Positions 22,680 through 39,965 of a stretch of DNA of 51,398 nucleotides are shown here, one piece after another. The notes beneath the pieces were generated by a model, which saw only the letters and a program-made list of their open reading frames with translations, was not told the DNA's origin and made no database searches. Positions within the stretch are counted from its first letter, which is position 1; every line of letters starts with the position of its first letter. This stretch comes from Spirochaetaceae bacterium (lineage in GTDB: Bacteria > Spirochaetota > Spirochaetia > DSM-27196 > PWMO01), in NCBI GenBank assembly GCA_007693325.1, contig REDW01000043.1, forward strand, positions 1-51,398. Direction: 5' to 3'. The translations under genes were made by a program, and so were the position numbers.

Positions 22680-23654
22680 GTGTTAAAAGACGTGTTTATT
22701 AAACAGCCGATCATGCGCAGAGTGGTTTACTCGCTGATCCCGATTTATCTGTTCTCCCTCTATATGTACGGATGGAGATTGATTGCCCTGTCAGCGGTGG
22801 TGTTTCCCCTCGGCATACTCACCGAGTATCTGATGGAGAAATCGCGCGGCAAGAAGGTCAGCGAAGCGGTGCTGGTTACCTGCACGCTCTTTGTCCTGAT
22901 TGTCCCGCCTGCAATTCCGCTGTGGATAGCGGCAATCGGGATCGTCTTCGGTGTCTTCTTCGGCAAAGAGGTCTATGGCGGTTTTGGCCGCAACATCTTC
23001 AACCCCGCGATATCGGGCCGAATCTTTGTGTGGATCAGCTTCCCGTCGCTTTTCGCCTACGGATTCATGGTTCCCGGAGGCTTTGGTACTGCCGGCGAGG
23101 CCGGCGTAGACGCGCTGTCGGCGGCGAGCCCGCTGGCGATGCTGGCCAACGGCAGCAGGCCGGAGTTGCTCGACACACTGCTGGGTTTCACCGGCGGCTC
23201 GATGGGTGAAACCTCGGCGGTGCTGATTATCCTGGCCGGCATATACCTGGTGGCTACCAAAACCGCGCAGTGGCGTCTGATTGTCTCTACCCTGCTGGGC
23301 GCCGGAGCCCTGATGAGCGCGTTCTACTACAGCGGCTTGACACCCAACTATCCGCCCGAATACGGCATGCTCTCGGGAAGCATTCTGTTTGTGTCGGTAT
23401 TCATGTCCACCGATCCGGTCAGCGCACCCAACAACCCGCGCGCGCAGTGGGTCTACGGCCTGCTGATCGGCACAATCAGCGTTACCATCCGCAACCTCGG
23501 CCAATTTCCCGAAGGCACCAGCTTCGGCATCCTGATGGGTAACGTCTTTGCCTCACTGCTTGACGAGATAATCCCCAAGCCCGCCAAGAAGAAGAGGTCC
23601 AAACAGAATGTCCCGACCGGCACGCAAACCGGCGCAAAGGGGGGAACGGCGTGA
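22680..23654 (+). CDS. rnfD: RnfD/NqrB-type membrane subunit
   Basis: A 324-residue polytopic membrane subunit of an ion-translocating redox pump. KEVYGGFGRNIFNPAISGR is a signature of the NqrB/RnfD family, and FMSTDPVSAP is a second one. The length fits RnfD (about 320-350) better than NqrB (about 410). The site for covalent FMN attachment, D-x-x-(S/T)-G-A-T in relatives, reads DALSAAS (144-150), so the acceptor would be Ser150 rather than Thr. The GTG start follows GAGGGAGG. It is the first gene of a six-gene operon and overlaps rnfG by GTGA. RnfC and RnfB genes, which normally precede RnfD, are absent here. Confidence 0.9.
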   Translation: MLKDVFIKQPIMRRVVYSLIPIYLFSLYMYGWRLIALSAVVFPLGILTEYLMEKSRGKKVSEAVLVTCTLFVLIVPPAIPLWIAAIGIVFGVFFGKEVYGGFGRNIFNPAISGRIFVWISFPSLFAYGFMVPGGFGTAGEAGVDALSAASPLAMLANGSRPELLDTLLGFTGGSMGETSAVLIILAGIYLVATKTAQWRLIVSTLLGAGALMSAFYYSGLTPNYPPEYGMLSGSILFVSVFMSTDPVSAPNNPRAQWVYGLLIGTISVTIRNLGQFPEGTSFGILMGNVFASLLDEIIPKPAKKKRSKQNVPTGTQTGAKGGTA

Positions 23655-24250
23655 ACAAACAGAGTCTGCCCTATACGGTTGTTTTTTCTTTCATCGTCTG
23701 TTTTGCGTTTGTCTTTCTGCTCTCGCTGACCCATCAGGCTACCCGCGAACAGGTACAGCTTAACCAGCAGTTACGCCTGCAACGGTCGGTACTCAGCGCG
23801 CTGGCCATTGACTACCAGGACGACCAGGAAGTGCTGCGGCTGTTCGATGACATCGAAACCGTTGAGCGCGACGGCATGACGCTCTACCGCATAGACCGAG
23901 ACGACGAGGTGCTCTACGCCAGAATTTTTGCCGGCAGCGGTGTATGGGGCACCATCAACGGCGTGGTAGGAGTAGACCAGGATATCAGCCGCACCGTCGC
24001 ACTGGAAATCATCGATCACAACGAGACTCCGGGGCTGGGAGGCCGCGTTGATGAGCCGGAGTTCAAACGGCAGTTCCTTGACAAACCGCTTGACGACGGA
24101 AAGATCGATGTCGTACGGGAGGGAGACACCGAAGGGGTCGACGGCCGTATCGACGCAATTACCGGGGCAACCGGTACATCCAAGGCAATAGAAACTATTC
24201 TGAACCGTGAGTTTGAACGTCTGCGAGACGCCCTGAGAGGTGAGGTATGA
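23651..24250 (+). CDS. rnfG: RnfG/NqrC-type flavoprotein subunit
   Basis: A 199-residue subunit with one N-terminal membrane helix (about 8-28) and an extracytoplasmic FMN-binding domain. ApbE-type flavin transferase is expected to attach FMN covalently to Thr174 in DAITGAT (168-174), which fits the D-x-x-(S/T)-G-A-T rule exactly. ETPGLGGRVDEPEFKRQF is the other conserved block. It relays electrons between membrane-embedded cofactors and the outer face. GTG start with GTGA overlap of rnfD. In T. pallidum the RnfG homologue is known to be flavinylated; here that is inferred from the motif. Confidence 0.92.
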   Translation: MNKQSLPYTVVFSFIVCFAFVFLLSLTHQATREQVQLNQQLRLQRSVLSALAIDYQDDQEVLRLFDDIETVERDGMTLYRIDRDDEVLYARIFAGSGVWGTINGVVGVDQDISRTVALEIIDHNETPGLGGRVDEPEFKRQFLDKPLDDGKIDVVREGDTEGVDGRIDAITGATGTSKAIETILNREFERLRDALRGEV

Positions 24251-24876
24251 GCGATAGCGCAAAACAACCCGGACAGATCCTCAAGCAGAACATGTGGACC
24301 GCAAATCCGATCTTCATGCAGATTCTCGGTATCTGCTCCGCGCTGGCAGTCACCAATCTGCTCTCCAACACCATGATCATGACGCTCGGGGTTGTTTTTG
24401 TAACCGGGATGTCCAATCTTACCGTTGCCATCATCAAGAACCTGATCCCGCGCAAGGTGCGCATGGTGGTGCAAACTCTGATCATCGCGTTCTACGTGAT
24501 TATTGTTGACATCGTGTTGCGCGCTTATCTGCCCGAGATCAGCCGCAACCTCGGTCCCTACGTTGGGCTGATCATCACCAACTGTATCATCATGGGGCGC
24601 GCCGAGGCGTTTGCCCAGAGCAATCCGCCGCTGCTGTCACTGTGGGACGGTATCACTTCTGGCATGGGGTACATGGGAGTGCTGCTTTCAATCGCGCTCG
24701 TACGTGAACTGCTGGGCTTCGGCGCGCTGTTTGGCTTCCAGGTTCTGCCGGAAGGATTCGAGCCCTGGATCATCATGGTGATGCCGCCGAGCGCGTTCTT
24801 CCTGATTGGCGTCATCACCTGGGGCGGCAAGTACCTGATGCATCGTCAAGGCGAACCCGTCCTGGAAGGAGAGTAA
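24247..24876 (+). CDS. rnfE: RnfE/NqrD-type membrane subunit
   Basis: A 209-residue membrane protein with about six helices, homologous to NqrD and RnfE. The two half-membrane cysteines that help bind the intramembrane iron-sulfur centre with the sister subunit are present: Cys30 in LGICSALAVTN and Cys113 in TNCIIMGRAEAFA. The extra residues at both ends relative to NqrE are typical. It pairs with the next gene product in inverted topology to form the central channel of the pump. The start overlaps rnfG by ATGA. Confidence 0.93.
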   Translation: MSDSAKQPGQILKQNMWTANPIFMQILGICSALAVTNLLSNTMIMTLGVVFVTGMSNLTVAIIKNLIPRKVRMVVQTLIIAFYVIIVDIVLRAYLPEISRNLGPYVGLIITNCIIMGRAEAFAQSNPPLLSLWDGITSGMGYMGVLLSIALVRELLGFGALFGFQVLPEGFEPWIIMVMPPSAFFLIGVITWGGKYLMHRQGEPVLEGE

Positions 24877-24879
24877 GAT

Positions 24880-25473
24880 ATGGCACCCGATATACCGATG
24901 TTTTCGCTCTTTTTTGCGTCAATCTTCACCAGTAACATCCTGTTGGCAAACTTCCTGGGGATGTGTTCGTTTATTGCGATTTCCAAAGATATCAGTTCTT
25001 CCAACGGTCTCGGCATGGCAGTGGTGGTGGTACTCACGTTCACCGCGTCGATCAACTGGCTTGTACTGAACTACGTTCTCATTCCACTGGATCTGGTCTA
25101 TCTGCGGTTCATCATTTTCATCATCGTAATTGCCTCGGTGGTGCAGATGCTGGAGATGATCATCGACCGCGTGTCGCAGACCCTCTACCTGAACCTGGGT
25201 ATCTTCCTGCCGTTGATCACCGTTAACTGTGCCATTCTTGGTGTTTCACTGTTCATGGAGATCCGGCAGTACAGCTTCCTGCAGACTGCCGTATTCGGCC
25301 TGGGGTCCGGACTCGGGTGGTGGCTGGCGATCATGGCTCTGGCGGCTATCCGCAAGAAAACCGAGAAGTCCAAGGTGCCCGCCGGACTGCAGGGCGCCGG
25401 ACTGACCTTTATCACCATCGGGTTCATGGCAATGGCGTTTATCGGCTTCACCGGCCTGCTTCAGGTCCAATAG
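24880..25473 (+). CDS. rnfA: RnfA/NqrE-type membrane subunit
   Basis: A 197-residue, six-helix membrane protein, paralogue of the preceding subunit. FTSNILLANFLGMCSF with Cys29 and ITVNCAILGVSLFM with Cys117 carry the remaining two ligands of the intramembrane iron-sulfur site. The C-terminal GAGLTFITIGFMAMAFIGF block is typical of NqrE/RnfA. GGAGAGT precedes the ATG by a few bases, and only 3 nt separate it from the rnfE stop. The sequence fits both NqrE and RnfA, so the name follows rnfD and rnfG. Confidence 0.93.
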   Translation: MAPDIPMFSLFFASIFTSNILLANFLGMCSFIAISKDISSSNGLGMAVVVVLTFTASINWLVLNYVLIPLDLVYLRFIIFIIVIASVVQMLEMIIDRVSQTLYLNLGIFLPLITVNCAILGVSLFMEIRQYSFLQTAVFGLGSGLGWWLAIMALAAIRKKTEKSKVPAGLQGAGLTFITIGFMAMAFIGFTGLLQVQ

Positions 25474-31679: not shown

Positions 31680-32123
31680 TCACCCGGTCAACAATTCGAA
31701 AAGCTCTGCCGAATCCCTGGCGGCTACGACCTTCTCACGCGCTTTCTTGTCCTTGAGTAAACGGCTGACCTCGGCCAGAAACTTCATATGCGGTCCGGTC
31801 TGACCTTTGGGCGATAACGTCATGATAAAAATGTGCGCCGGCTTATGATCGATGCTCTCAAAATCGATCTTGCGGTCGCTGACCGCCACACACGCAATCA
31901 TCTCATCAACGGCATCGGTCTTGGCGTGCGGGATCGCTATGCCTTGTTCAAGTCCGGTTGACATGCGTTGCTCGTTGGCCAGAATATCTTGCAGCGCCTG
32001 CCGCCGATCCTTGACCTTACCCGTGCTGCACAGCATATCGAGTAGCGCATCAATGACTTCCTGCTTGTTGCGCACGCTGAGTCCGACCGTCACCAGATCC
32101 TGGCTTAACGCTTCTTTCAACAT
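31680..32123 (-). CDS. ptsN: PTS EIIA (PtsN/fructose-type)
   Basis: A 147-residue EIIA domain of the fructose/nitrogen PTS family. His66 in GIAIPHAKTD is the expected phosphoryl acceptor, and FIMTLSPKGQTGPHMKFLAE is the family block after it. No EIIB or EIIC genes lie nearby, so it probably has a regulatory role like EIIA-Ntr. The ATG at 32123 (MLKEALSQDLV) is chosen because the domain starts there and a consensus promoter sits directly before it; a longer reading from 32228 would run through that promoter. Divergent from the LtaS-like gene. Confidence 0.88.
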   Translation of the reverse strand: MLKEALSQDLVTVGLSVRNKQEVIDALLDMLCSTGKVKDRRQALQDILANEQRMSTGLEQGIAIPHAKTDAVDEMIACVAVSDRKIDFESIDHKPAHIFIMTLSPKGQTGPHMKFLAEVSRLLKDKKAREKVVAARDSAELFELLTG

Positions 32124-32161
32124 AATGAAAGGAGGATAGGACCGAAGTGCACGGTTGTCAA
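32124..32161 (-). promoter_or_regulatory. EIIA promoter, near leaderless
   Basis: On the minus strand a perfect TTGACA (32161-32156), a 17-nt spacer and TATCCT (32138-32133) lie 9 nt before the ATG at 32123. The intervening bases are pyrimidine-rich and contain no Shine-Dalgarno site. Confidence 0.6.
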
Positions 32162-32201
32162 CCGGAGGCTTCATTCGCGCTGGCCGAGGTCTTGCAGGAT
32201 A

Positions 32202-32210
32202 TGATATGCT
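32202..32210 (+). promoter_or_regulatory. Extended -10 element before the LtaS-like gene
   Basis: TGATATGCT (32202-32210) fits the TGnTATnnT extended -10 pattern. No good -35 box is seen. The predicted leader would be about 29 nt without a Shine-Dalgarno site, so this is a tentative call. Confidence 0.3.
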
Positions 32211-32245
32211 GAACTCGGTCACGCGCATGTAACCGGTGCTTTATC

Positions 32246-34123
32246 ATGAGAAATATTCAGAGATCCACAAACCGAACAATGCTGTTTTTCGCCTCATTCC
32301 TGGCTGGATTGCTGGTCAAGTACAATATCATGCTGGTGCATATCTTCAGCGCGCGTGCCTGGCCGATGATAGCATCGCGGAATATCGTCATTGTCGTCGT
32401 GGCAATCTGCTTCATTCTTCCGCTGCTCAGGCTGCGTCCGGCGCGTCTGGCCTTGTTGCTGACTTCGCTGCTGATCAGCGTGGCGTTCATGGCCAACCTG
32501 TGGTACAACCGCTATTTTGGCAACTTCCTCAGCATCAGCGAGATGACCACCGGCGAGGGCTACGATCCGACGGCTGTGGTGCTGCGCCACATCATGCGCC
32601 CCACGGATCTGCTCTTTCTGATGGATCTGCTGATCATGGGGCTGACCGTTGGGCGCCGGAAGGACCCCGCCATCCACTCGCAACACTACCGTGTGTTCAG
32701 TCGGCTGACGCGAACCAGCGCGCGTGTTATAGCGCTGCTCAGCGTGGCGTTGATTGTGGTTACGCAGATTTTTGTCGGCAACCTGCGTCGCGGAGGATTG
32801 ACACCGGCGGAACTCTATCGCGAGAGCAGTGCCGGATTTGTGGCGGTGTACGGGCTGGTACCGCTTTACGCAGCCGAGTTCTTTCTCGATCACCGCGCCG
32901 ACCCAAAGCCCGAAACGCTGGTGCGTGAGCAGCCGCAACCGCCACCAATGCCTGCAACGCGCGCGCTTGACGGTGAGGCACTGGTTGCAGCTGATACAAA
33001 CGTGGTTGTTATCCAGGTGGAATCGCTGGACAAGAAGCTCATCGACTACCGTTATCTCGGTCGCGAAGTTACGCCATTTGTAAACTCGCTCAAGCAGGAC
33101 AGCCTCTACGCTAACAACTTCTACGCACAGCACGTAAATGGGAGCTTTGATGCCGATTTTTCGCTGTTGACCGGACTCTACCCGGTCAACCGTCACTATT
33201 CGTTCCGTGAGAACGACATGAGCCGCTTCGACTCGCTTGTGGCTATCCTCAATGACGCCGGATACCGTACCATCGCGCTGCACGGTAACGATGCCGAGTT
33301 CTTCTACCGTCACCGCGCCTATCCCGAACTCGGTTTTGACCGCTTCTACGCCAGACCGGACTTCTCGCAGTCGCGCAAACGCTTCCATGTCGAGGGGGCG
33401 TACCTGGGAATCAATGACTGGGATTTTCTGTATCAATCACTGGATTATCTCGAACAGGCGGAGCAGCCATTCTTTGCCTACCTTATCACGGTTACCAGTC
33501 ACACCCCGTTCACCTTCTACCCGCCGCAATTCGCGCAGCCGCAATTTGAGCAACTCAACAGCCCGTTGGTGCGCGACTTCTTCAACTCGATCTATTTTGT
33601 TGACCAGGCGCTGCAGATGTTCTTTGGCGAGCTGGAGCTGCGCGGACTGGCAGAGAACACCCTGTTTGTGATCTACTCTGACCACGAAGCGGCTATCGAT
33701 ACCGCGGAGTATTCATCGAGTATTGGTTTCGCGGTTGACCGCAACCTGAAGCAACCCGAACACATTCCGCTGCTCATCCTGCATCCGGACATCGAGCCGG
33801 GAACAATCGAGAAGACCGGTAGCATTACCGATCTGGCCCCGACTATCCTGGACATTCTGGGCTTCACCGAAGTACCCGAAAGTTTCTCGGGCAGCTCGCT
33901 GCTGCAACCAGGCTATGAACCGGTCCTCTTCATCCACGAGCTTCCCCAGATCCTCTACCGTGATCAGTTGTACGTGGCCGAACTTGGAGAACTGGAAAAA
34001 GTTGGTTATGTTGAAGGCAGGCAGGCTGCCATTGAGGTCCCGCCCGACAAGCAGCAGCGGACGCTGGACACTATCCGCTATCTACGGGAATTGATGCTGG
34101 TAACGCGGCGCAGCGGCGGCTGA
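32246..34123 (+). CDS. LtaS-like phosphoglycerol transferase (sulfatase fold)
   Basis: A 625-residue membrane enzyme: about five N-terminal membrane segments (10-190), then an extracytoplasmic sulfatase-fold domain (about 250-600). Metal and catalytic positions align with LtaS: Glu259 in VIQVESLD, and Asp479-His480 in IYSDHEA. The nucleophile position, Thr300 in S. aureus LtaS, is Ser300 here in NGSFDADF. Relatives move glycerol phosphate from phosphatidylglycerol to teichoic acids, glucans or glycolipids. Treponema species are known to make lipoteichoic-acid-like glycolipids, so such a role is plausible. The next gene, a glycerophosphodiesterase 17 nt downstream, supports a glycerol-phosphate theme. 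Confidence 0.85.
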   Translation: MRNIQRSTNRTMLFFASFLAGLLVKYNIMLVHIFSARAWPMIASRNIVIVVVAICFILPLLRLRPARLALLLTSLLISVAFMANLWYNRYFGNFLSISEMTTGEGYDPTAVVLRHIMRPTDLLFLMDLLIMGLTVGRRKDPAIHSQHYRVFSRLTRTSARVIALLSVALIVVTQIFVGNLRRGGLTPAELYRESSAGFVAVYGLVPLYAAEFFLDHRADPKPETLVREQPQPPPMPATRALDGEALVAADTNVVVIQVESLDKKLIDYRYLGREVTPFVNSLKQDSLYANNFYAQHVNGSFDADFSLLTGLYPVNRHYSFRENDMSRFDSLVAILNDAGYRTIALHGNDAEFFYRHRAYPELGFDRFYARPDFSQSRKRFHVEGAYLGINDWDFLYQSLDYLEQAEQPFFAYLITVTSHTPFTFYPPQFAQPQFEQLNSPLVRDFFNSIYFVDQALQMFFGELELRGLAENTLFVIYSDHEAAIDTAEYSSSIGFAVDRNLKQPEHIPLLILHPDIEPGTIEKTGSITDLAPTILDILGFTEVPESFSGSSLLQPGYEPVLFIHELPQILYRDQLYVAELGELEKVGYVEGRQAAIEVPPDKQQRTLDTIRYLRELMLVTRRSGG

Positions 34124-34140
34124 TCGGGTACCACCGACCA

Positions 34141-35169
34141 ATGAAACTGATAATCACAATAGCAGCAGTTCTCAGCGCTCTGGTGATGTTCTTCTATGGA
34201 GCGTATTACATCATCAATCCAGACACGCGCGCACCCCAGATTCTGGACCAGCTTTCAATTCCACACCCTGCGGTAATAGCTCACCGCGGCGCTTCAGTTG
34301 TGGCACCCGAGTCTACTACGCCGGCGTATGAGATTGCAGTGCGGCTCGGTTCGGACTATCTCGAAGCCGACGTGCAGCGCAGCGCCGACGGAGAGCTGAT
34401 TATCTTCCACGACTCCGATCTCAGGCGCACCTCAAACGTTAGCGAGCTTTTCCCGCGGCGACAGCACGACCCGGTCGGAAGTTTTACGCTGGCGGAGCTG
34501 AGAACGCTGGACTACGGCAGCTGGTTCAATCGGGCGTTTCCGCTGCAGGCACGACCGGAATACGAGGGGCTCGAGATCCTGACGCTGTGCGAGCTGATCG
34601 CTATAGCCGAATCCGGCGAGCATACCACCGGGCTCATACTCGAGAGCAAGCACCCTGAGCGATACCCCGGCATCGAGCAGCAGATCATCGACACGCTGCT
34701 GGCCGAAGGCTGGCTGAAGCAAACCGAGAGCGGCCGGGTATTTGATAGAGCCTCGGCCGGCAAAGCCGAACATACGCGTACCATCTTCTTCTCTTTCTCT
34801 CCAGCAAGTCTTCGCCGCTTCCAGGAGATCGCGCCGGAGATACCACGGCTATTGCTGATCAACGACACCATGATAACGCACCTGCGCTGGAGAAGCTGGC
34901 TGGAGGTTGCTGAACCGATAGCGCACGGGTTGGGCCTCAAGGGGTTCATGGCGTGGCCGTGGTACATCGCGGCAGCACACGAAAAACAGATGTTCGTCCT
35001 GCCGTATACCATCAATTACCTGTGGCAGATCAGAGTCCTGGCACAGTTCCAGGCAAGCGGATTCATAACCGACCGACCCGAGCTCGTGCTTGGCTTCCTG
35101 CAGCGGCTCCCGCAGCAACCGAATTCAGCGCCTGTTCGCGATGCGATTATCCCGGCAACACCTCGCTGA
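34141..35169 (+). CDS. Glycerophosphodiester phosphodiesterase
   Basis: A 342-residue GDPD of TIM-barrel type with an N-terminal hydrophobic anchor or signal (about 1-22), so it probably acts in the periplasm. AHRGASVVAPEST carries the catalytic His48, followed by EADVQ and the second catalytic His in IFHDSDLRRTSN near 91. It cleaves glycerophosphodiesters to glycerol 3-phosphate and an alcohol. It is probably co-transcribed with the LtaS-like gene and could recycle or trim glycerol-phosphate polymers. Confidence 0.9.
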   Translation: MKLIITIAAVLSALVMFFYGAYYIINPDTRAPQILDQLSIPHPAVIAHRGASVVAPESTTPAYEIAVRLGSDYLEADVQRSADGELIIFHDSDLRRTSNVSELFPRRQHDPVGSFTLAELRTLDYGSWFNRAFPLQARPEYEGLEILTLCELIAIAESGEHTTGLILESKHPERYPGIEQQIIDTLLAEGWLKQTESGRVFDRASAGKAEHTRTIFFSFSPASLRRFQEIAPEIPRLLLINDTMITHLRWRSWLEVAEPIAHGLGLKGFMAWPWYIAAAHEKQMFVLPYTINYLWQIRVLAQFQASGFITDRPELVLGFLQRLPQQPNSAPVRDAIIPATPR

Positions 35170-35213: not shown

Positions 35214-35705
35214 ATGAGACGTCTGTTGCATCATATCAGCATGATGGCCGTATTCGCGGTTGTCTGGATCATCCTGGAAGAGCAATTCTCACTGACAACG
35301 GTAGCAGTTGGCTCCCTGATCGGGCTGCTGACCATGATTGTAACCAACCGCTACGTTCTGCGGGCCGACTACGAGTCCGACTACCGGCTTGGACTGTGGG
35401 TTGGCGTCAAATACGTGGTTTCGCTGATTATCCAGATCTACGTCGCTGGCATTCAGGCGCTGATCAAGGTGCTGCGCGGCCAGGTTCATGTGGGCATCGT
35501 AGACGTTCACACCACCCTCGAGAGTGACTTTCACATTGCGCTGTTGGCCAATTCGATCACGCTCACTCCCGGCACGGTAACACTCGAGCGCAACGGTAAC
35601 TACCTCAAGGTCATCTGGATCGATTGTGTGACCACCGACCCCGAAGTAGCGGGGCCTATGATCAAGCAGAACTTCGAGCGCATGATATCGGGAGGCAAAT
35701 CGTGA
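35214..35705 (+). CDS. mrpE: Na+/H+ antiporter subunit E (MrpE/MbhA type)
   Basis: A 163-residue membrane protein, first of the antiporter operon. Hydrophobic segments fill residues 1-80, and the family block VHTTLESDFHIALLANSITL with LTPGTVTLE is present. The C-terminus is cytosolic. MrpE/MbhA subunits stabilise the small-subunit end of multisubunit cation/proton antiporters. The ATG at 35214 lies directly after an extended -10 box. It overlaps the next gene by GTGA. Confidence 0.9.
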   Translation: MRRLLHHISMMAVFAVVWIILEEQFSLTTVAVGSLIGLLTMIVTNRYVLRADYESDYRLGLWVGVKYVVSLIIQIYVAGIQALIKVLRGQVHVGIVDVHTTLESDFHIALLANSITLTPGTVTLERNGNYLKVIWIDCVTTDPEVAGPMIKQNFERMISGGKS

Positions 35706-35959
35706 GTTTCTACGACGCGGTGCTGCTGGCGCTGGCACTGCTTACCATCGGCGGGATCATCCGCGTGGTGGTGGGCCCGACTATCTGGGATCGTCTGCTG
35801 GGGCTCAATCTCATTTCCTCCAAGATCATCATGGCGATCATTGTCTTTGCGCTGATGATTCAGCGCACATTCCTGCTCGATATCGCTATAGTCTACGCTC
35901 TGCTCGGTTTCATCGGCAGTGTGCTGATAGCGCGATTCATAGAACGGAAGGGCGAATGA
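35702..35959 (+). CDS. mrpF: Na+/H+ antiporter subunit F (MrpF/MbhB type)
   Basis: An 85-residue protein with three membrane helices. IIRVVVGPTIWDRLLGLNLI is the MrpF signature (R-x-x-x-G-P-x-x-x-D-R), followed by FLLDIAIVYALLGFIG. GTG start overlaps mrpE by GTGA, and the end overlaps mrpG by ATGA. It is one of the small subunits thought to line the sodium path in Mrp and Mbh complexes. Confidence 0.92.
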   Translation: MSFYDAVLLALALLTIGGIIRVVVGPTIWDRLLGLNLISSKIIMAIIVFALMIQRTFLLDIAIVYALLGFIGSVLIARFIERKGE

Positions 35960-36273
35960 TGGCTCAGGCAGCACACCTGATCGGTCAGATTCTGATCGGA
36001 ATTGGCCTGGTATTCATGGCATTCGGCATCTACAGTGTATTGCGATTCAGAGATTTCTACTCACGCGTGGTGATCACGGCCAAGGTGGATACCGTCGGCT
36101 TTCTGACCCTGATCTTCGGTGCCATGCTGATTGAGGGGTTCAGCTACTTCACGCTGAAGCTTGCACTGATTGTGGTCTTCGAGCTGCTGACCAGTCCAAT
36201 CTCCACTCACTCGATTGCGCACTCGGCCTACGCCAGCGGCTACAAGATCAGAAAGGACGTTCGAATTGATTGA
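35956..36273 (+). CDS. mrpG: Na+/H+ antiporter subunit G (MrpG/MbhC type)
   Basis: A 105-residue protein with three membrane helices. FGIYSVLRFRDFYSRVVIT and AKVDTVGFLTLI followed by LTSPISTHSIAHSAY are MrpG/PhaG signatures. It starts with ATGATG overlapping the mrpF stop. Its own stop overlaps the TTG start of the next gene by 8 nt. Confidence 0.92.
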   Translation: MMAQAAHLIGQILIGIGLVFMAFGIYSVLRFRDFYSRVVITAKVDTVGFLTLIFGAMLIEGFSYFTLKLALIVVFELLTSPISTHSIAHSAYASGYKIRKDVRID

Positions 36274-36829
36274 GGCAATTCTTCTGCTGCTGTTGATTCT
36301 GCTGGCGATCGTTGCGGTTGAGACTCAGATCCTGCGCATGGCGGTGGTGTTCCTCGGAATTTTTTCGCTGTTGCTCTCGTTTCTCTACCTGTACTACGGC
36401 GCGCCGGACGTCGCTATTGCCGAAGCGGTTATGGCAAGCGGTCTGGTGACGCTGCTCTACCTGACAGCGCTCAAACGCTACCGGGTCTACAACATCTGTT
36501 TCACCAACCAGATGTTTCGCGAGGTCGATGATCGATACATCGTAGAGGGTACGCGCCGCGGGCAACTGCTGCACGAAGTCGAACAGTTCTGCATTTCCAA
36601 AGAACTCGAACCGCAGATTGTCTTCACACCCGAAGACCTCGAGACACTGATGGGAACGCGCAAGTATGACCTCATCATCCGCCAGGAAGGCGATCAGCTG
36701 ACAATTTACGGCAGTCAGGAGAACTACTTTGTCGATGAACTCGAGATGCTGTTGATCCTGCGTTACCAGGACCTGAATACCAGGTTCATGCGCTACGCTG
36801 AAGACGGCAGCTTTGTGGAGGAGTCCTGA
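36266..36829 (+). CDS. MbhD-type (MrpA C-terminal, DUF4040) subunit fused to a soluble domain
   Basis: A 187-residue protein. The first 75 or so residues are three membrane helices with YLYYGAPDVAIAEAVMASGL, the DUF4040 signature found in MbhD and near the C-terminus of MrpA. The remaining 110 residues are soluble and acidic, running from YNICFTNQMFREVDDRYI through IVFTPEDLETLMGTRKYD to the end. I do not recognise this part; typical MbhD proteins are about 90-100 residues and lack it. The TTG start at 36266 follows AAGGAC. GGAGGAG at its end serves the next gene. Confidence 0.8.
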   Translation: MIEAILLLLLILLAIVAVETQILRMAVVFLGIFSLLLSFLYLYYGAPDVAIAEAVMASGLVTLLYLTALKRYRVYNICFTNQMFREVDDRYIVEGTRRGQLLHEVEQFCISKELEPQIVFTPEDLETLMGTRKYDLIIRQEGDQLTIYGSQENYFVDELEMLLILRYQDLNTRFMRYAEDGSFVEES

Positions 36830-37090
36830 ATGCGGCAGGTAGCGCTCACCGTTTTTGTGGTTCTCCTGATGGGATTGGTACTCTTCATCGCCAACGGCCA
36901 CCGAGAGATACTGGATAACGAAGTATCGGCCTACTACCTGCAGAATTTCACCAGCGATACCGGTGCCGGCAACGCAGTGGCGGCCATCTATTTAAACTAC
37001 CGCATGTACGACACCATCTTTGAGGCGCTGATCCTGATCACCAGCATCATCGGCATGCTGCACTTCTTCAAAGCCGGAGGCAACAAGTGA
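36830..37090 (+). CDS. MbhE-type antiporter subunit (MrpA extreme C-terminus)
   Basis: An 86-residue protein with two membrane helices (about 5-22 and 62-80) separated by a polar loop with NGHREILDNEVSAYYLQN. NAVAAIYLNYRMYDTIFEAL is the conserved block (N-x-V-x-x-I-x-x-x-Y-R-x-x-D-T) seen in MbhE and in the last part of MrpA. The ATG directly follows the previous stop, with GGAGGAG upstream. It overlaps mrpB by GTGA. Confidence 0.85.
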   Translation: MRQVALTVFVVLLMGLVLFIANGHREILDNEVSAYYLQNFTSDTGAGNAVAAIYLNYRMYDTIFEALILITSIIGMLHFFKAGGNK

Positions 37091-37473
37091 AGCAGAAAGC
37101 ATCGATTGTTTCGAGCATCACCGGTTTGCTCTATCCGTTCATCATCGTGTTCGGAATCTACGTTATCCTCAACGGTCACGACACACCCGGCGGCGGCTTT
37201 CAGGGCGGTGCAATCCTGGCGGTGCTGTTTATTGGACGCTACATTGTAGCCCATACCGATGACTTCAATATTGGGCGTGCTCACAATACCGAGAAGGCGC
37301 TGCTGGTCGTGCTCATCCTGGTTCCGGTTGTCTTTGTCTTCGGCTCGCTCAGCCGCCGGTTCCCGCAGTACAACCAGGTCTATCTGGTGTTCATGAACCT
37401 GCTTATCGGCTTCAAGGTGGCTCTGGGACTGACGGTTGTCGTGTTTCGTTACGCGTTCTACGAGGATCGATGA
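37087..37473 (+). CDS. mrpB: Na+/H+ antiporter subunit B (MrpB/MbhF type)
   Basis: A 128-residue membrane protein with about four helices. LYPFIIVFGIYVILNGHDTP and GGGFQGGAILA carry the family signature (G-H-x-x-P-G-G-G-F-Q-G-G). The C-terminal half LMNLLIGFKVALGLTVVV-like segment (MNLLIGFKVALG) is also typical. GTG start with GTGA overlap of the previous gene. The next gene begins 2 nt after its stop. Confidence 0.93.
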   Translation: MKQKASIVSSITGLLYPFIIVFGIYVILNGHDTPGGGFQGGAILAVLFIGRYIVAHTDDFNIGRAHNTEKALLVVLILVPVVFVFGSLSRRFPQYNQVYLVFMNLLIGFKVALGLTVVVFRYAFYEDR

Positions 37474-37474
37474 C

Positions 37475-37822
37475 GTGCAGTACATAACCGCACAGAACGT
37501 CAGCCTGGTGCTGTTCTTCATTGGACTATACGGGGTGCTGGTCAAGCGCAACATCATCAAGACGATTGTCTCGGTCAATATTATGGACTTTGGTGCAATC
37601 CTGTTCCTGATAACAGTTAACTATAAGCCGGGAAGCATCCCGCCGATTGGCAGCACCGAAATTGAGCGAATGGCCGATCCGTTGCCGCAGGCGCTGATGA
37701 TCACTGCGATTGTGATTGGCATTTCGGTCACCGCCGTCAGTTTGACTATCTTCATCAGTCTCTTCCGCAAGCACGGAACCGCTGACTGGGAGAACGTCAT
37801 CAAGCGGATACAGAAACGATGA
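37475..37822 (+). CDS. mrpC: Na+/H+ antiporter subunit C (MrpC/MbhG, NuoK-like)
   Basis: A 115-residue, three-helix subunit homologous to NuoK. VLFFIGLYGVLVKRNIIKTI and ADPLPQALMITAIVIGISVT are MrpC/NuoK signatures. GTG start at 37475 follows GAGGA. It overlaps the next gene by ATGA. In complex I the equivalent subunit carries conserved glutamates in the proton path; the usual glutamate of helix 2 is not obvious here, as is common in MrpC. Confidence 0.92.
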   Translation: MQYITAQNVSLVLFFIGLYGVLVKRNIIKTIVSVNIMDFGAILFLITVNYKPGSIPPIGSTEIERMADPLPQALMITAIVIGISVTAVSLTIFISLFRKHGTADWENVIKRIQKR

Positions 37823-39492
37823 TACCGCTCTACGCTCTGGTTATTTTGCCGGTCCTGGCCGCAACCGCCGGGTACTTCCTGCCGCGCTCGATCTATAAGC
37901 ACGTTCTGATTCTAGTCCAACTGGTACACCTGCTGATGGTTGTGCTGGTCTTCATCGAGGTAAGGACCGGCGGTGTAATACGCCACTACGTCGGCGGTTG
38001 GAGCGACGGCATCGGTATCGCCCTGGTAGCCGATACGCTTTCGATAACCATGGTACTGCTCGCCTCGCTGTTGTTCCTGTTGCTGTTCCTGTTCAACTAC
38101 GGCAAGCGCTATATGGACAATATCTTTCAGTTCCTGTTCATCCTGCTGCAGGGCGTCAGCATTGGCGTCTTCCTGGCCGGCGACCTCTTCCACGTCTACG
38201 TACTGATCGAGCTGACAACAATCACCATCAGTATTCTGATAATGTACAAGCGCGACAAACAGGCGCTGTATGACGGCCTGCTCTACATCCTGCTGAACCT
38301 CTTCGGCGTGACGTTCTTTCTGCTGGGAGTAGGATTCATTTACAAGACTTTCGGTGTGCTCGACATGGCGCTGATAGCCGAACGAATCCAGCTGCTCGAT
38401 GACACCCGCGGCCTGGCGCTACCGTACGCGCTGCTGCTTTCGGCCATCGGCCTGAAGGCCGCTATCCTGCCGCTGTTCAGCTGGTTGCCGAGCGCGCACG
38501 GGGCGCTGACCGCGCCCTCGGCGGTATCCGCGGTGCTGTCTGGCTTGCAGGTCAAAGTCGGTATCTTCCTCTTTCTGCGCGTGCAGTGGGTCTTCTCGGG
38601 CGTCTTTGAGACAACCGGTTTCTTCTTTGTTGTGGCGCTGCTGACCGCGGTTGCCGGCTTCACAATTGCTCTGGTGCACCACGACGTGAAGCTGATCCTG
38701 GCCTTCTCCACGGTTTCGCAGATCGGCCTGATCATGATGGGCCTCAACGCCGGCACCGAGGTTGCGTACTTCGGCAGCGTATTCCACATCATCAACCACG
38801 CGCTGTTCAAGGCGCTGTTGTTCATCACCGCCGGAGTCATAACCCACGCGGTTGGCACGCGCGACATCACCCGCATCAGAAACATTGCGCCCAAAGCTCC
38901 GCTGTTCGCCGTTGCAACGCTGCTCGCAATGCTGGGCATCACCGGGGGGCCGTTTTTCAACGGCAGCGTCTCCAAGTACCTGATCCAGGCGGGTCTTGCC
39001 GGACAGCCTGGAGAAGTCCTGATTTACATCGTGAATCTCGGCACAATCATGGTCTTTGTCAAGTACGCCCAGATGTACCTGCCGCGCCGTAATCCGGCGG
39101 CGTCGCAGCAAGCCGCGGATGAGGGGGTCGGAGACGTTGTGGTAGAGACCGAGCCCCACGGTGCAGAACAACCGATACCGGGCCGAGCGTTTGCGATGAA
39201 GGCCGTTGCACTGCTTATCGGAGCGGTCTGCCTGGCCGCCGGCGTCCTGGCTGCCCCGTTGATGCGGCTGCTGTTTGACCACGACCTGCCGGTCTCGGGA
39301 GCGTTCTACCTTGAGAAGACGCTTATCTATGTTGTTACCCTGGCAATTGGCATTGCGCTGTACTACGGCGTGGTGCACCGCAGCCGCTTCCTGGTTGCCG
39401 TACGCGAGTATCGATTCACGTTCAACACCATCTGTCTACTCTACACTGGCTTCTTTGCTTCGTTACTCTGCTACACCTATATCTTTGCCTGA
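37819..39492 (+). CDS. mrpD: Na+/H+ antiporter subunit D (MrpD/MbhH, NuoL/M/N-like)
   Basis: A 557-residue, roughly 14-helix ion-translocating subunit, the only large one in this operon. Glu131 in YVLIELTTI and Lys213 in AIGLKAAILP match the functionally essential Glu137 and Lys219 of MrpD. LPSAHGALTAPSAVSAVLSG and HHDVKLILAFSTVSQIG are family signatures. A hydrophilic insertion near residues 420-455 (RNPAASQQAADEGVG onward) lengthens it beyond the usual 490-500. No MrpA N-terminal NuoL-like subunit is encoded, so the complex would have a single large subunit as in Mbh. The operon appears to end here. Confidence 0.93.
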   Translation: MIPLYALVILPVLAATAGYFLPRSIYKHVLILVQLVHLLMVVLVFIEVRTGGVIRHYVGGWSDGIGIALVADTLSITMVLLASLLFLLLFLFNYGKRYMDNIFQFLFILLQGVSIGVFLAGDLFHVYVLIELTTITISILIMYKRDKQALYDGLLYILLNLFGVTFFLLGVGFIYKTFGVLDMALIAERIQLLDDTRGLALPYALLLSAIGLKAAILPLFSWLPSAHGALTAPSAVSAVLSGLQVKVGIFLFLRVQWVFSGVFETTGFFFVVALLTAVAGFTIALVHHDVKLILAFSTVSQIGLIMMGLNAGTEVAYFGSVFHIINHALFKALLFITAGVITHAVGTRDITRIRNIAPKAPLFAVATLLAMLGITGGPFFNGSVSKYLIQAGLAGQPGEVLIYIVNLGTIMVFVKYAQMYLPRRNPAASQQAADEGVGDVVVETEPHGAEQPIPGRAFAMKAVALLIGAVCLAAGVLAAPLMRLLFDHDLPVSGAFYLEKTLIYVVTLAIGIALYYGVVHRSRFLVAVREYRFTFNTICLLYTGFFASLLCYTYIFA

Positions 39493-39522: not shown

Positions 39523-39551
39523 TTGTGCGCGCTTCAGGCTATGCTCGGGTT

Positions 39552-39965
39552 ATGGACTTCTTTGAATCGCAGCTGATCTCGCAGTTTGTTGCCGACAACT
39601 TCTACTGGCTTTTTCTGGGAATACTGGTGCTTAATCTTACCCAGCGCAAACACCAGAAGACCGCGCAGAAGAAGAGGCTGGCCACCCTCTACCTGGCGGT
39701 AGCTGCACTGGTTCTCTATTCTGCGGGGCAACTGGTACTCAACTACGAGGTGGGCGACATCTATCTCCTGCTGGTGCTGGTTATCGTAGTGGGCGTGATC
39801 ATGCGCTTCCGTGACCGCGTGTTTCCCTTTACCCTGCGCTGCGTTGAATCGGGTAAACGGCTCGATATGCACACCATTCTCTACCGCGATTCCAACACGC
39901 TGCCGGAGTTCGATGAGCGCGAGCCCGAACCTGAGCCCGAACCCGAGCAAGACTCCCAGCCCTAA
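39552..39965 (+). CDS. Small membrane protein with EP-repeat tail, unknown function
   Basis: A 137-residue protein with about three membrane helices (residues 17-31, 45-64, 70-88) and a cytosolic tail that ends in alternating Glu-Pro (EREPEPEPEPEQDSQP). I do not recognise it. It follows the antiporter operon but seems to have its own promoter, and it does not resemble MbhI, the next gene in true Mbh operons. Its end overlaps the convergent DUF5668-like gene by 4 nt. Confidence 0.65.
   Translation: MDFFESQLISQFVADNFYWLFLGILVLNLTQRKHQKTAQKKRLATLYLAVAALVLYSAGQLVLNYEVGDIYLLLVLVIVVGVIMRFRDRVFPFTLRCVESGKRLDMHTILYRDSNTLPEFDEREPEPEPEPEQDSQP

Follow-up and report, generated by a model that had tools for sequence, protein, structure and literature searches.

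Which subunit of the Mrp antiporters carries H+ and which carries Na+ is still disputed, with MrpA central to the question. MrpA is essential in the canonical Mrp of Bacillus subtilis (cited in PMC8415708), and the structure of its antiporter-like part with the lateral helix has been described (PMC9568556). A stand-alone group 3 (MrpA-less) Mrp, without an energy-input module, is encoded by Pf1147-53 (mrpEFGBB'CD) of Pyrococcus furiosus; its deletion rendered the cells more sensitive to acidification, and Na+ was indicated as the coupling ion (PMC8415708). Here, an Mrp cluster of eight genes is described from a 51,398 nt stretch of DNA of a Spirochaetaceae bacterium (GenBank assembly GCA_007693325.1, contig REDW01000043.1), referred to as the window. 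A stand-alone, MrpA-less Mrp with a single MrpD (single-D) and this gene order is already known from P. furiosus (PMC8415708), and group 3 Mrp as a class predates that work.

The eight genes are located on the + strand at positions 35214-39492, in the order of MbhA-H of the archaeal membrane-bound hydrogenase (Mbh). They are listed with product length in amino acids (aa) and Pfam match:

35214..35705, + strand: mrpE (MbhA-type), 163 aa, PF01899 (2.4e-28)
35702..35959, + strand: mrpF (MbhB-type), 85 aa, conserved acidic D30 in GPT..DR, PF04066 (8.7e-18)
35956..36273, + strand: mrpG (MbhC-type), 105 aa, PF03334 (8.2e-20)
36266..36829, + strand: mbhD-like, ~187 aa, three transmembrane helices and a predicted cytosolic C-terminal domain (36473-36829), PF13244 (1.3e-14)
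36830..37090, + strand: mbhE-like, 86 aa, PF20501 (8.5e-5)
37087..37473, + strand: mrpB (MbhF-type), 128 aa, PF04039 (1.1e-18)
37475..37822, + strand: mrpC (MbhG/NuoK-type), 115 aa, PF00420 (2.8e-25)
37819..39492, + strand: mrpD, 557 aa, the only large proton-channel subunit of the cluster, PF00361 (1.7e-47)

Pfam scores for the E, F, G, MbhD-like, B, C and D products were all well above the cut-off. The mbhE-like product matched PF20501 with 23 bits, under the curated cut-off of 27; it also matched the NCBIfam models for the C-terminal part of MrpA and for DUF4040/MrpB, and its position in the cluster is conserved. Neighbouring genes abut or overlap by a few bases, as is typical of one operon, and all eight reading frames are intact. 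The order proposed in an earlier note on this DNA was recovered in full, and the Pfam and NCBIfam matches bore out two of its further claims, that the NuoL-like part of MrpA is missing from the cluster and that no hydrogenase genes adjoin it. A NuoH-like gene is likewise absent beside the cluster. With mrpD present, mrpA absent, an EFG-(D/E)-B-C-D order and no redox module, the cluster has the features of a group 3 stand-alone Mrp, and very probably encodes a free-standing cation/proton antiporter with one proton-channel subunit.

Compared by gene order and content, the cluster has in common with Pf1147-53 the order E-F-G-(D/E layer)-B-C-D, the lack of MrpA and of a redox module, and the single D. 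It differs in that MbhD and MbhE, fused as MrpB in P. furiosus, are separate open reading frames in the window (36266-36829 and 36830-37090), in that the MbhD piece carries a putative cytosolic domain of ~110 aa, and in being bacterial with many members. The fusion varies inside the single-D clade and is a trait of the P. furiosus member, not of group 3. According to the earlier note, its reading would fail if this order were standard for stand-alone Mrp; this is largely the case, given Pf1147-53 (PMC8415708) and dozens of bacterial loci.

The eight-gene membrane order and the split between MbhD and MbhE are shared with MbhA-H of P. furiosus (6cfw) and with the Mbh of Clostridium cuniculi, but the window cluster is without a hydrogenase module and its D lies outside the MbhH and MbsH groups. 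MbhD measures 78 residues in chain D of 6cfw and 87 aa in C. cuniculi, against about 187 aa in the window. The C. cuniculi locus (L118, 1942-9931) served as positive control, since its identical order is flanked by NuoH-, NuoB- and NuoD-like genes; bordered at either end by group 4 hydrogenase-like genes, it represents a bacterial Mbh, and a relative (L133) has the same mrp order. MBS contains MbsH, MbsH' and redox subunits, whereas the window has one D, outside the MbsH-like group, and no redox families. The group 1/2 Mrp of Bacillus pseudofirmus (7qru), Anoxybacillus (6z16) and Dietzia (7d3u) have homologous B, C, D, E, F and G subunits and the C-terminal MrpA layer, present here as MbhD/E, but also the NuoL-like part of MrpA with 14 transmembrane helices and the lateral helix, both lacking in the window cluster, and two proton channels instead of one. 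Group 3 Mrp with two large subunits (cyanobacterial mrpCD1D2EFGAB and the clusters on contigs C140 and C77 of the window's own genome) equally lack a fused full-length MrpA and have similar small subunits, but contain two PF00361 proteins where the window cluster has one.

Residue equivalences in MrpD were counted by hand from an alignment with MrpD/MbhH sequences of the PDB. E131, K213, K246 and K331 align with E137, K219, K250 and K337 of BpMrpD, and conservation extends to H327 and K386. Five of these six proton-path residues were invariant in a 14-row alignment and K213 was nearly so; the acidic D30 of MrpF was also retained upon conservation analysis. The retained residues indicate that the cluster has one complete proton path, alongside an E-F-G-B module with no part missing.

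In a careful tree of 41 rows, of which the PDB rows are partial sequences copied from alignments, the window D was placed within a 20-row clade of single-D clusters (support 100/100), with a group of spirochaetes encoding a short MbhD as sister. It was split from MbhH, MbsH, Bacillus MrpD, MrpA and the D proteins of C140 and C77 at 99/99. A quick tree of 151 rows agreed but showed long-branch joins, and the 41-row tree was relied on. Descent of the window D from the MbhH type was rejected on the basis of this split. The likeness to Mbh pointed out in the earlier note is therefore one of gene order and not of descent within MbhH.

The single-D cluster recurs in Spirochaetales, Clostridia and Izimaplasma/Acholeplasma. 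A scan of GTDB species genomes located it in soda-lake spirochaetes, Clostridia (Acetobacterium, Vallitalea, Mobilitalea), Propionigenium and Izimaplasma/Acholeplasma; it is present in the congeners (G001-G005) and in most of the order. Identity within the genus is 68-78%, and the order of the cluster is kept across phyla. Among 16 clade genomes checked, 11 had no PF00361 protein besides the cluster D, including those of the isolates Acetobacterium dehalogenans DSM 11527, Mobilitalea sibirica DSM 26468 and Propionigenium maris DSM 9537, so that one large subunit is enough and no MrpA can be on loan in these organisms. Two paralogous full copies are often present within the order, with D about 45-50% identical, and are convergent in some genomes: in L046 (3007-14717) and L049 (1506-13695) two complete single-D clusters converge around a cupredoxin-like gene and an EIIA gene. 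The second paralogous form of D occurs in all five congeners and was not found in the window genome, either lost or hidden in an assembly gap. In Alkalibacterium two or three D genes stand in tandem, as they do in a few Clostridia; three Alkalibacterium loci (L069, L072, L073) carry a tandem triplet of D genes that belong to this clade, as though D had been multiplied to replace MrpA.

The own genome, a 97.5% complete assembly of 3.47 Mb in 150 contigs, encodes five PF00361 proteins: the window D, and one pair each in the clusters on C140 and C77. Both clusters have the layout E-F-G-MbhD(short)-MbhE+B fused-C-D-D2 and are thus two-large-subunit Mrp with complete subunit sets of their own; with the window D, their large subunits share no more than 27-30% identity. 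These two further clusters were catalogued as L006 (6375-11837) and L007 (4243-9694), and the D2 genes at their ends sit on a very long branch. A full-length MrpA with the NuoL-like part was not seen in the Mrp clusters of this genome; the search for a separate MrpA proposed in the earlier note yielded the two two-large-subunit clusters in its stead.

The mbhD-like subunit, ~187 aa long against about 80-90 aa for MbhD, matches PF13244 only within residues 25-89, as numbered in the longer open reading frame. In the predicted structure, residues 1-72 resemble MbhD, NuoJ and the C-terminal layer of MrpA (Z 9.6-11.8, root-mean-square deviation (rmsd) 1.5-2.1 over 72 residues). The remainder, about 110-115 residues, is hydrophilic and follows the K/R-rich end of the third transmembrane helix, which by the positive-inside rule would place it in the cytosol. 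This extension is conserved across the single-D clade. No Pfam match was obtained for it at E-values up to 10, and the PRK07377 models of NCBIfam match only the transmembrane part of the protein and provide no link to the extension. The AlphaFold model of the extension (35 rows) has a predicted local distance difference test (pLDDT) score of 82.6 and a mixed alpha/beta arrangement in which five strands surround four to five helices. Foldseek returned no match with E < 0.001, neither for the extension alone nor for the full MbhD-like model. The VIA-align rows for the extension were nearly all LysR effector domains and type-2 periplasmic-binding proteins, the best with Z 6.7 (below 8) and rmsd 2.8 over 84 residues. 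These rows of Z 5-7, on which the fold likeness rests, weakly suggest one lobe of the type-2 periplasmic-binding/LysR-effector fold, which is plausible but not proven. As the Mrp layer carrying MbhD/E lies between the H+ module and the one for Na+ (PMC8415708, PMC9568556), a sensor at this place could gate their coupling.

A gene for an EIIA protein of the phosphotransferase system (PTS) is found 3 kb upstream of the cluster, on the opposite strand:

31680..32228, - strand: PTS EIIA (PTS_EIIA_2), IPHAK phospho-histidine motif, proposed regulator, PF00359 (8e-34)

Of 22 spirochaete loci, about 16 have a homologue within the cluster or up to about 3.5 kb away. Such homologues follow D on the same strand after about 35-105 nt in, for example, L042, L043, L044 and L045, and overlap the start of mrpE in, for example, L054, L055 and L103. 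The own genome has seven such EIIA genes in 3.47 Mb, for which simple arithmetic gives a chance expectation of about 0.04 per 20-kb stretch; HPr and EI are present. In the window, EIIA and mrpE are separated by a sulfatase-family (LTA-synthase-like) gene and a glycerophosphodiester phosphodiesterase gene (32246-35169), while EIIA directly adjoins mrpE in the sister locus L038. In Escherichia coli, PtsN inhibits the K+/H+ antiporter YcgO, an example of EIIA control of a cation/proton antiporter (PMC11808508). By analogy, the EIIA near the cluster is a candidate PtsN-like regulator of Mrp. The E. coli case, like the one proposed here, involves a cytosolic domain by way of which an EIIA-type protein affects a cation/proton antiporter; the two differ in that YcgO is a CPA1 protein of one polypeptide, and that contact between EIIA and Mrp is suggested solely by gene neighbourhood.

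The locus is best read as encoding a minimal Na+/H+ antiporter that is regulated and serves pH and Na+ homeostasis. In the transport that we infer, H+ would cross MrpD through half-channels built on E131, K213, K246, H327, K331 and K386, and this flow would be coupled via the MbhD/MbhE-like layer to an opposite flow of Na+ (or K+) through the E-F-G-B module. For a soda-lake spirochaete, the likely direction would be Na+ out and H+ in, by which the cytosol would be kept less alkaline. Placed where the H+ and Na+ modules meet, the added domain is most likely a sensor for a ligand or partner protein and would gate the activity, with the EIIA phosphocarrier as a candidate partner. More tentatively, and at present rather doubtful, the clade may be a distinct bacterial Mrp branch of one-channel antiporters, in which a ligand-binding-like MbhD domain is gated by a small molecule or EIIA and PTS phosphorylation sets Na+/H+ exchange.

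Several observations weigh against this reading of a regulated, free-standing antiporter. The genome was assembled in 150 contigs and absences are not absolute, and the four other PF00361 proteins in the two other Mrp clusters make sharing of subunits possible in this organism. The extension is missing in the short-MbhD sister clade and in four termite-gut-type loci of Firmicutes (L079, L081, L083, L087), where MbhD, MbhE and MrpB are fused into a protein of 306-328 aa that has no room for the cytosolic domain. The window EIIA lies 3 kb off on the other strand, and EIIA does not adjoin the cluster in about a third of the spirochaete loci, nor in Clostridia. Without MrpA, essential in B. subtilis and bearer of the lateral helix, the complex might be an ion-conducting remnant; with its sensor-like cytosolic domain, it could also function as a sensor or a channel and not by coupled antiport, or be decayed or non-transporting. 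Such an explanation is very improbable in view of the intact frames, the invariant or nearly invariant proton path and the conservation of sequence within the genus and of gene order across phyla, besides the deletion phenotype of the stand-alone P. furiosus Mrp (PMC8415708).

Borrowing of a second, MrpA/D2-like large subunit from C140 or C77 would make the window cluster part of a normal two-channel Mrp. Both clusters offer a D and a D2, and the tandem D genes of Alkalibacterium and a few Clostridia show more than one large subunit after the cluster, but the 11 clade genomes with a sole PF00361 protein, the low identity of the C140 and C77 subunits to the window D and their own complete small-subunit sets make it very improbable. 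The earlier note had left the choice between a free-standing antiporter with one large subunit, which the 11 of 16 genomes favour, and a module whose redox partner is encoded elsewhere. In the latter case the eight genes would supply the membrane part of a pump driven by a redox reaction (Mbh, Mbs or some new type), an idea prompted by the MbhA-H order, which a real bacterial Mbh such as that of C. cuniculi also has, and by a PF00346 match on another contig in two genomes of the short-MbhD sister clade. It is largely refuted and the least probable of the three, because PF00346 (large subunit, NuoD/MbhL), PF00146 (NuoH/MbhM) and PF01058 (NuoB/MbhJ) are all without a match in the own genome, while the same searches gave matches in 11 of 14 control genomes. 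PF00346 is absent from 34 further genomes of the single-D clade (20 + 14; 0/35 with the own genome), leaving no hydrogenase available elsewhere in the sole-D organisms, and the grouping of D with neither MbhH nor MbsH and the lack of an adjoining NuoH-like gene argue against it as well.

In the literature searched, which did not cover most subscription papers, no description was found of the bacterial clade, the cytosolic MbhD domain or the link with EIIA. Cultured bacteria with one MrpD as sole PF00361 protein provide a clean natural test of the role of MrpA: if the eight genes catalyse antiport without it, MrpA cannot be the required path for Na+ or H+. The clade also presents an Mrp module without a redox engine, which bears on the assembly of complex I and Mbh, and the extra domain together with the linked EIIA gene offers a first testable idea for the regulation of Mrp antiporters.

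The gene downstream of mrpD is, as the earlier note had it, that of an unrelated small membrane protein:

39525..39965, + strand: 146-aa small membrane protein, probably not a subunit, no known family

It had no Pfam or NCBIfam match, and among the clusters compared it was found 3' of mrpD in the genus only. About 10 kb upstream of the cluster, homologues of NqrB/RnfD, NqrC/RnfG and NqrD/RnfE are followed by a fourth open reading frame (24880-25473), and this region (22680-25473) probably encodes a Na+-pumping Rnf/Nqr complex.

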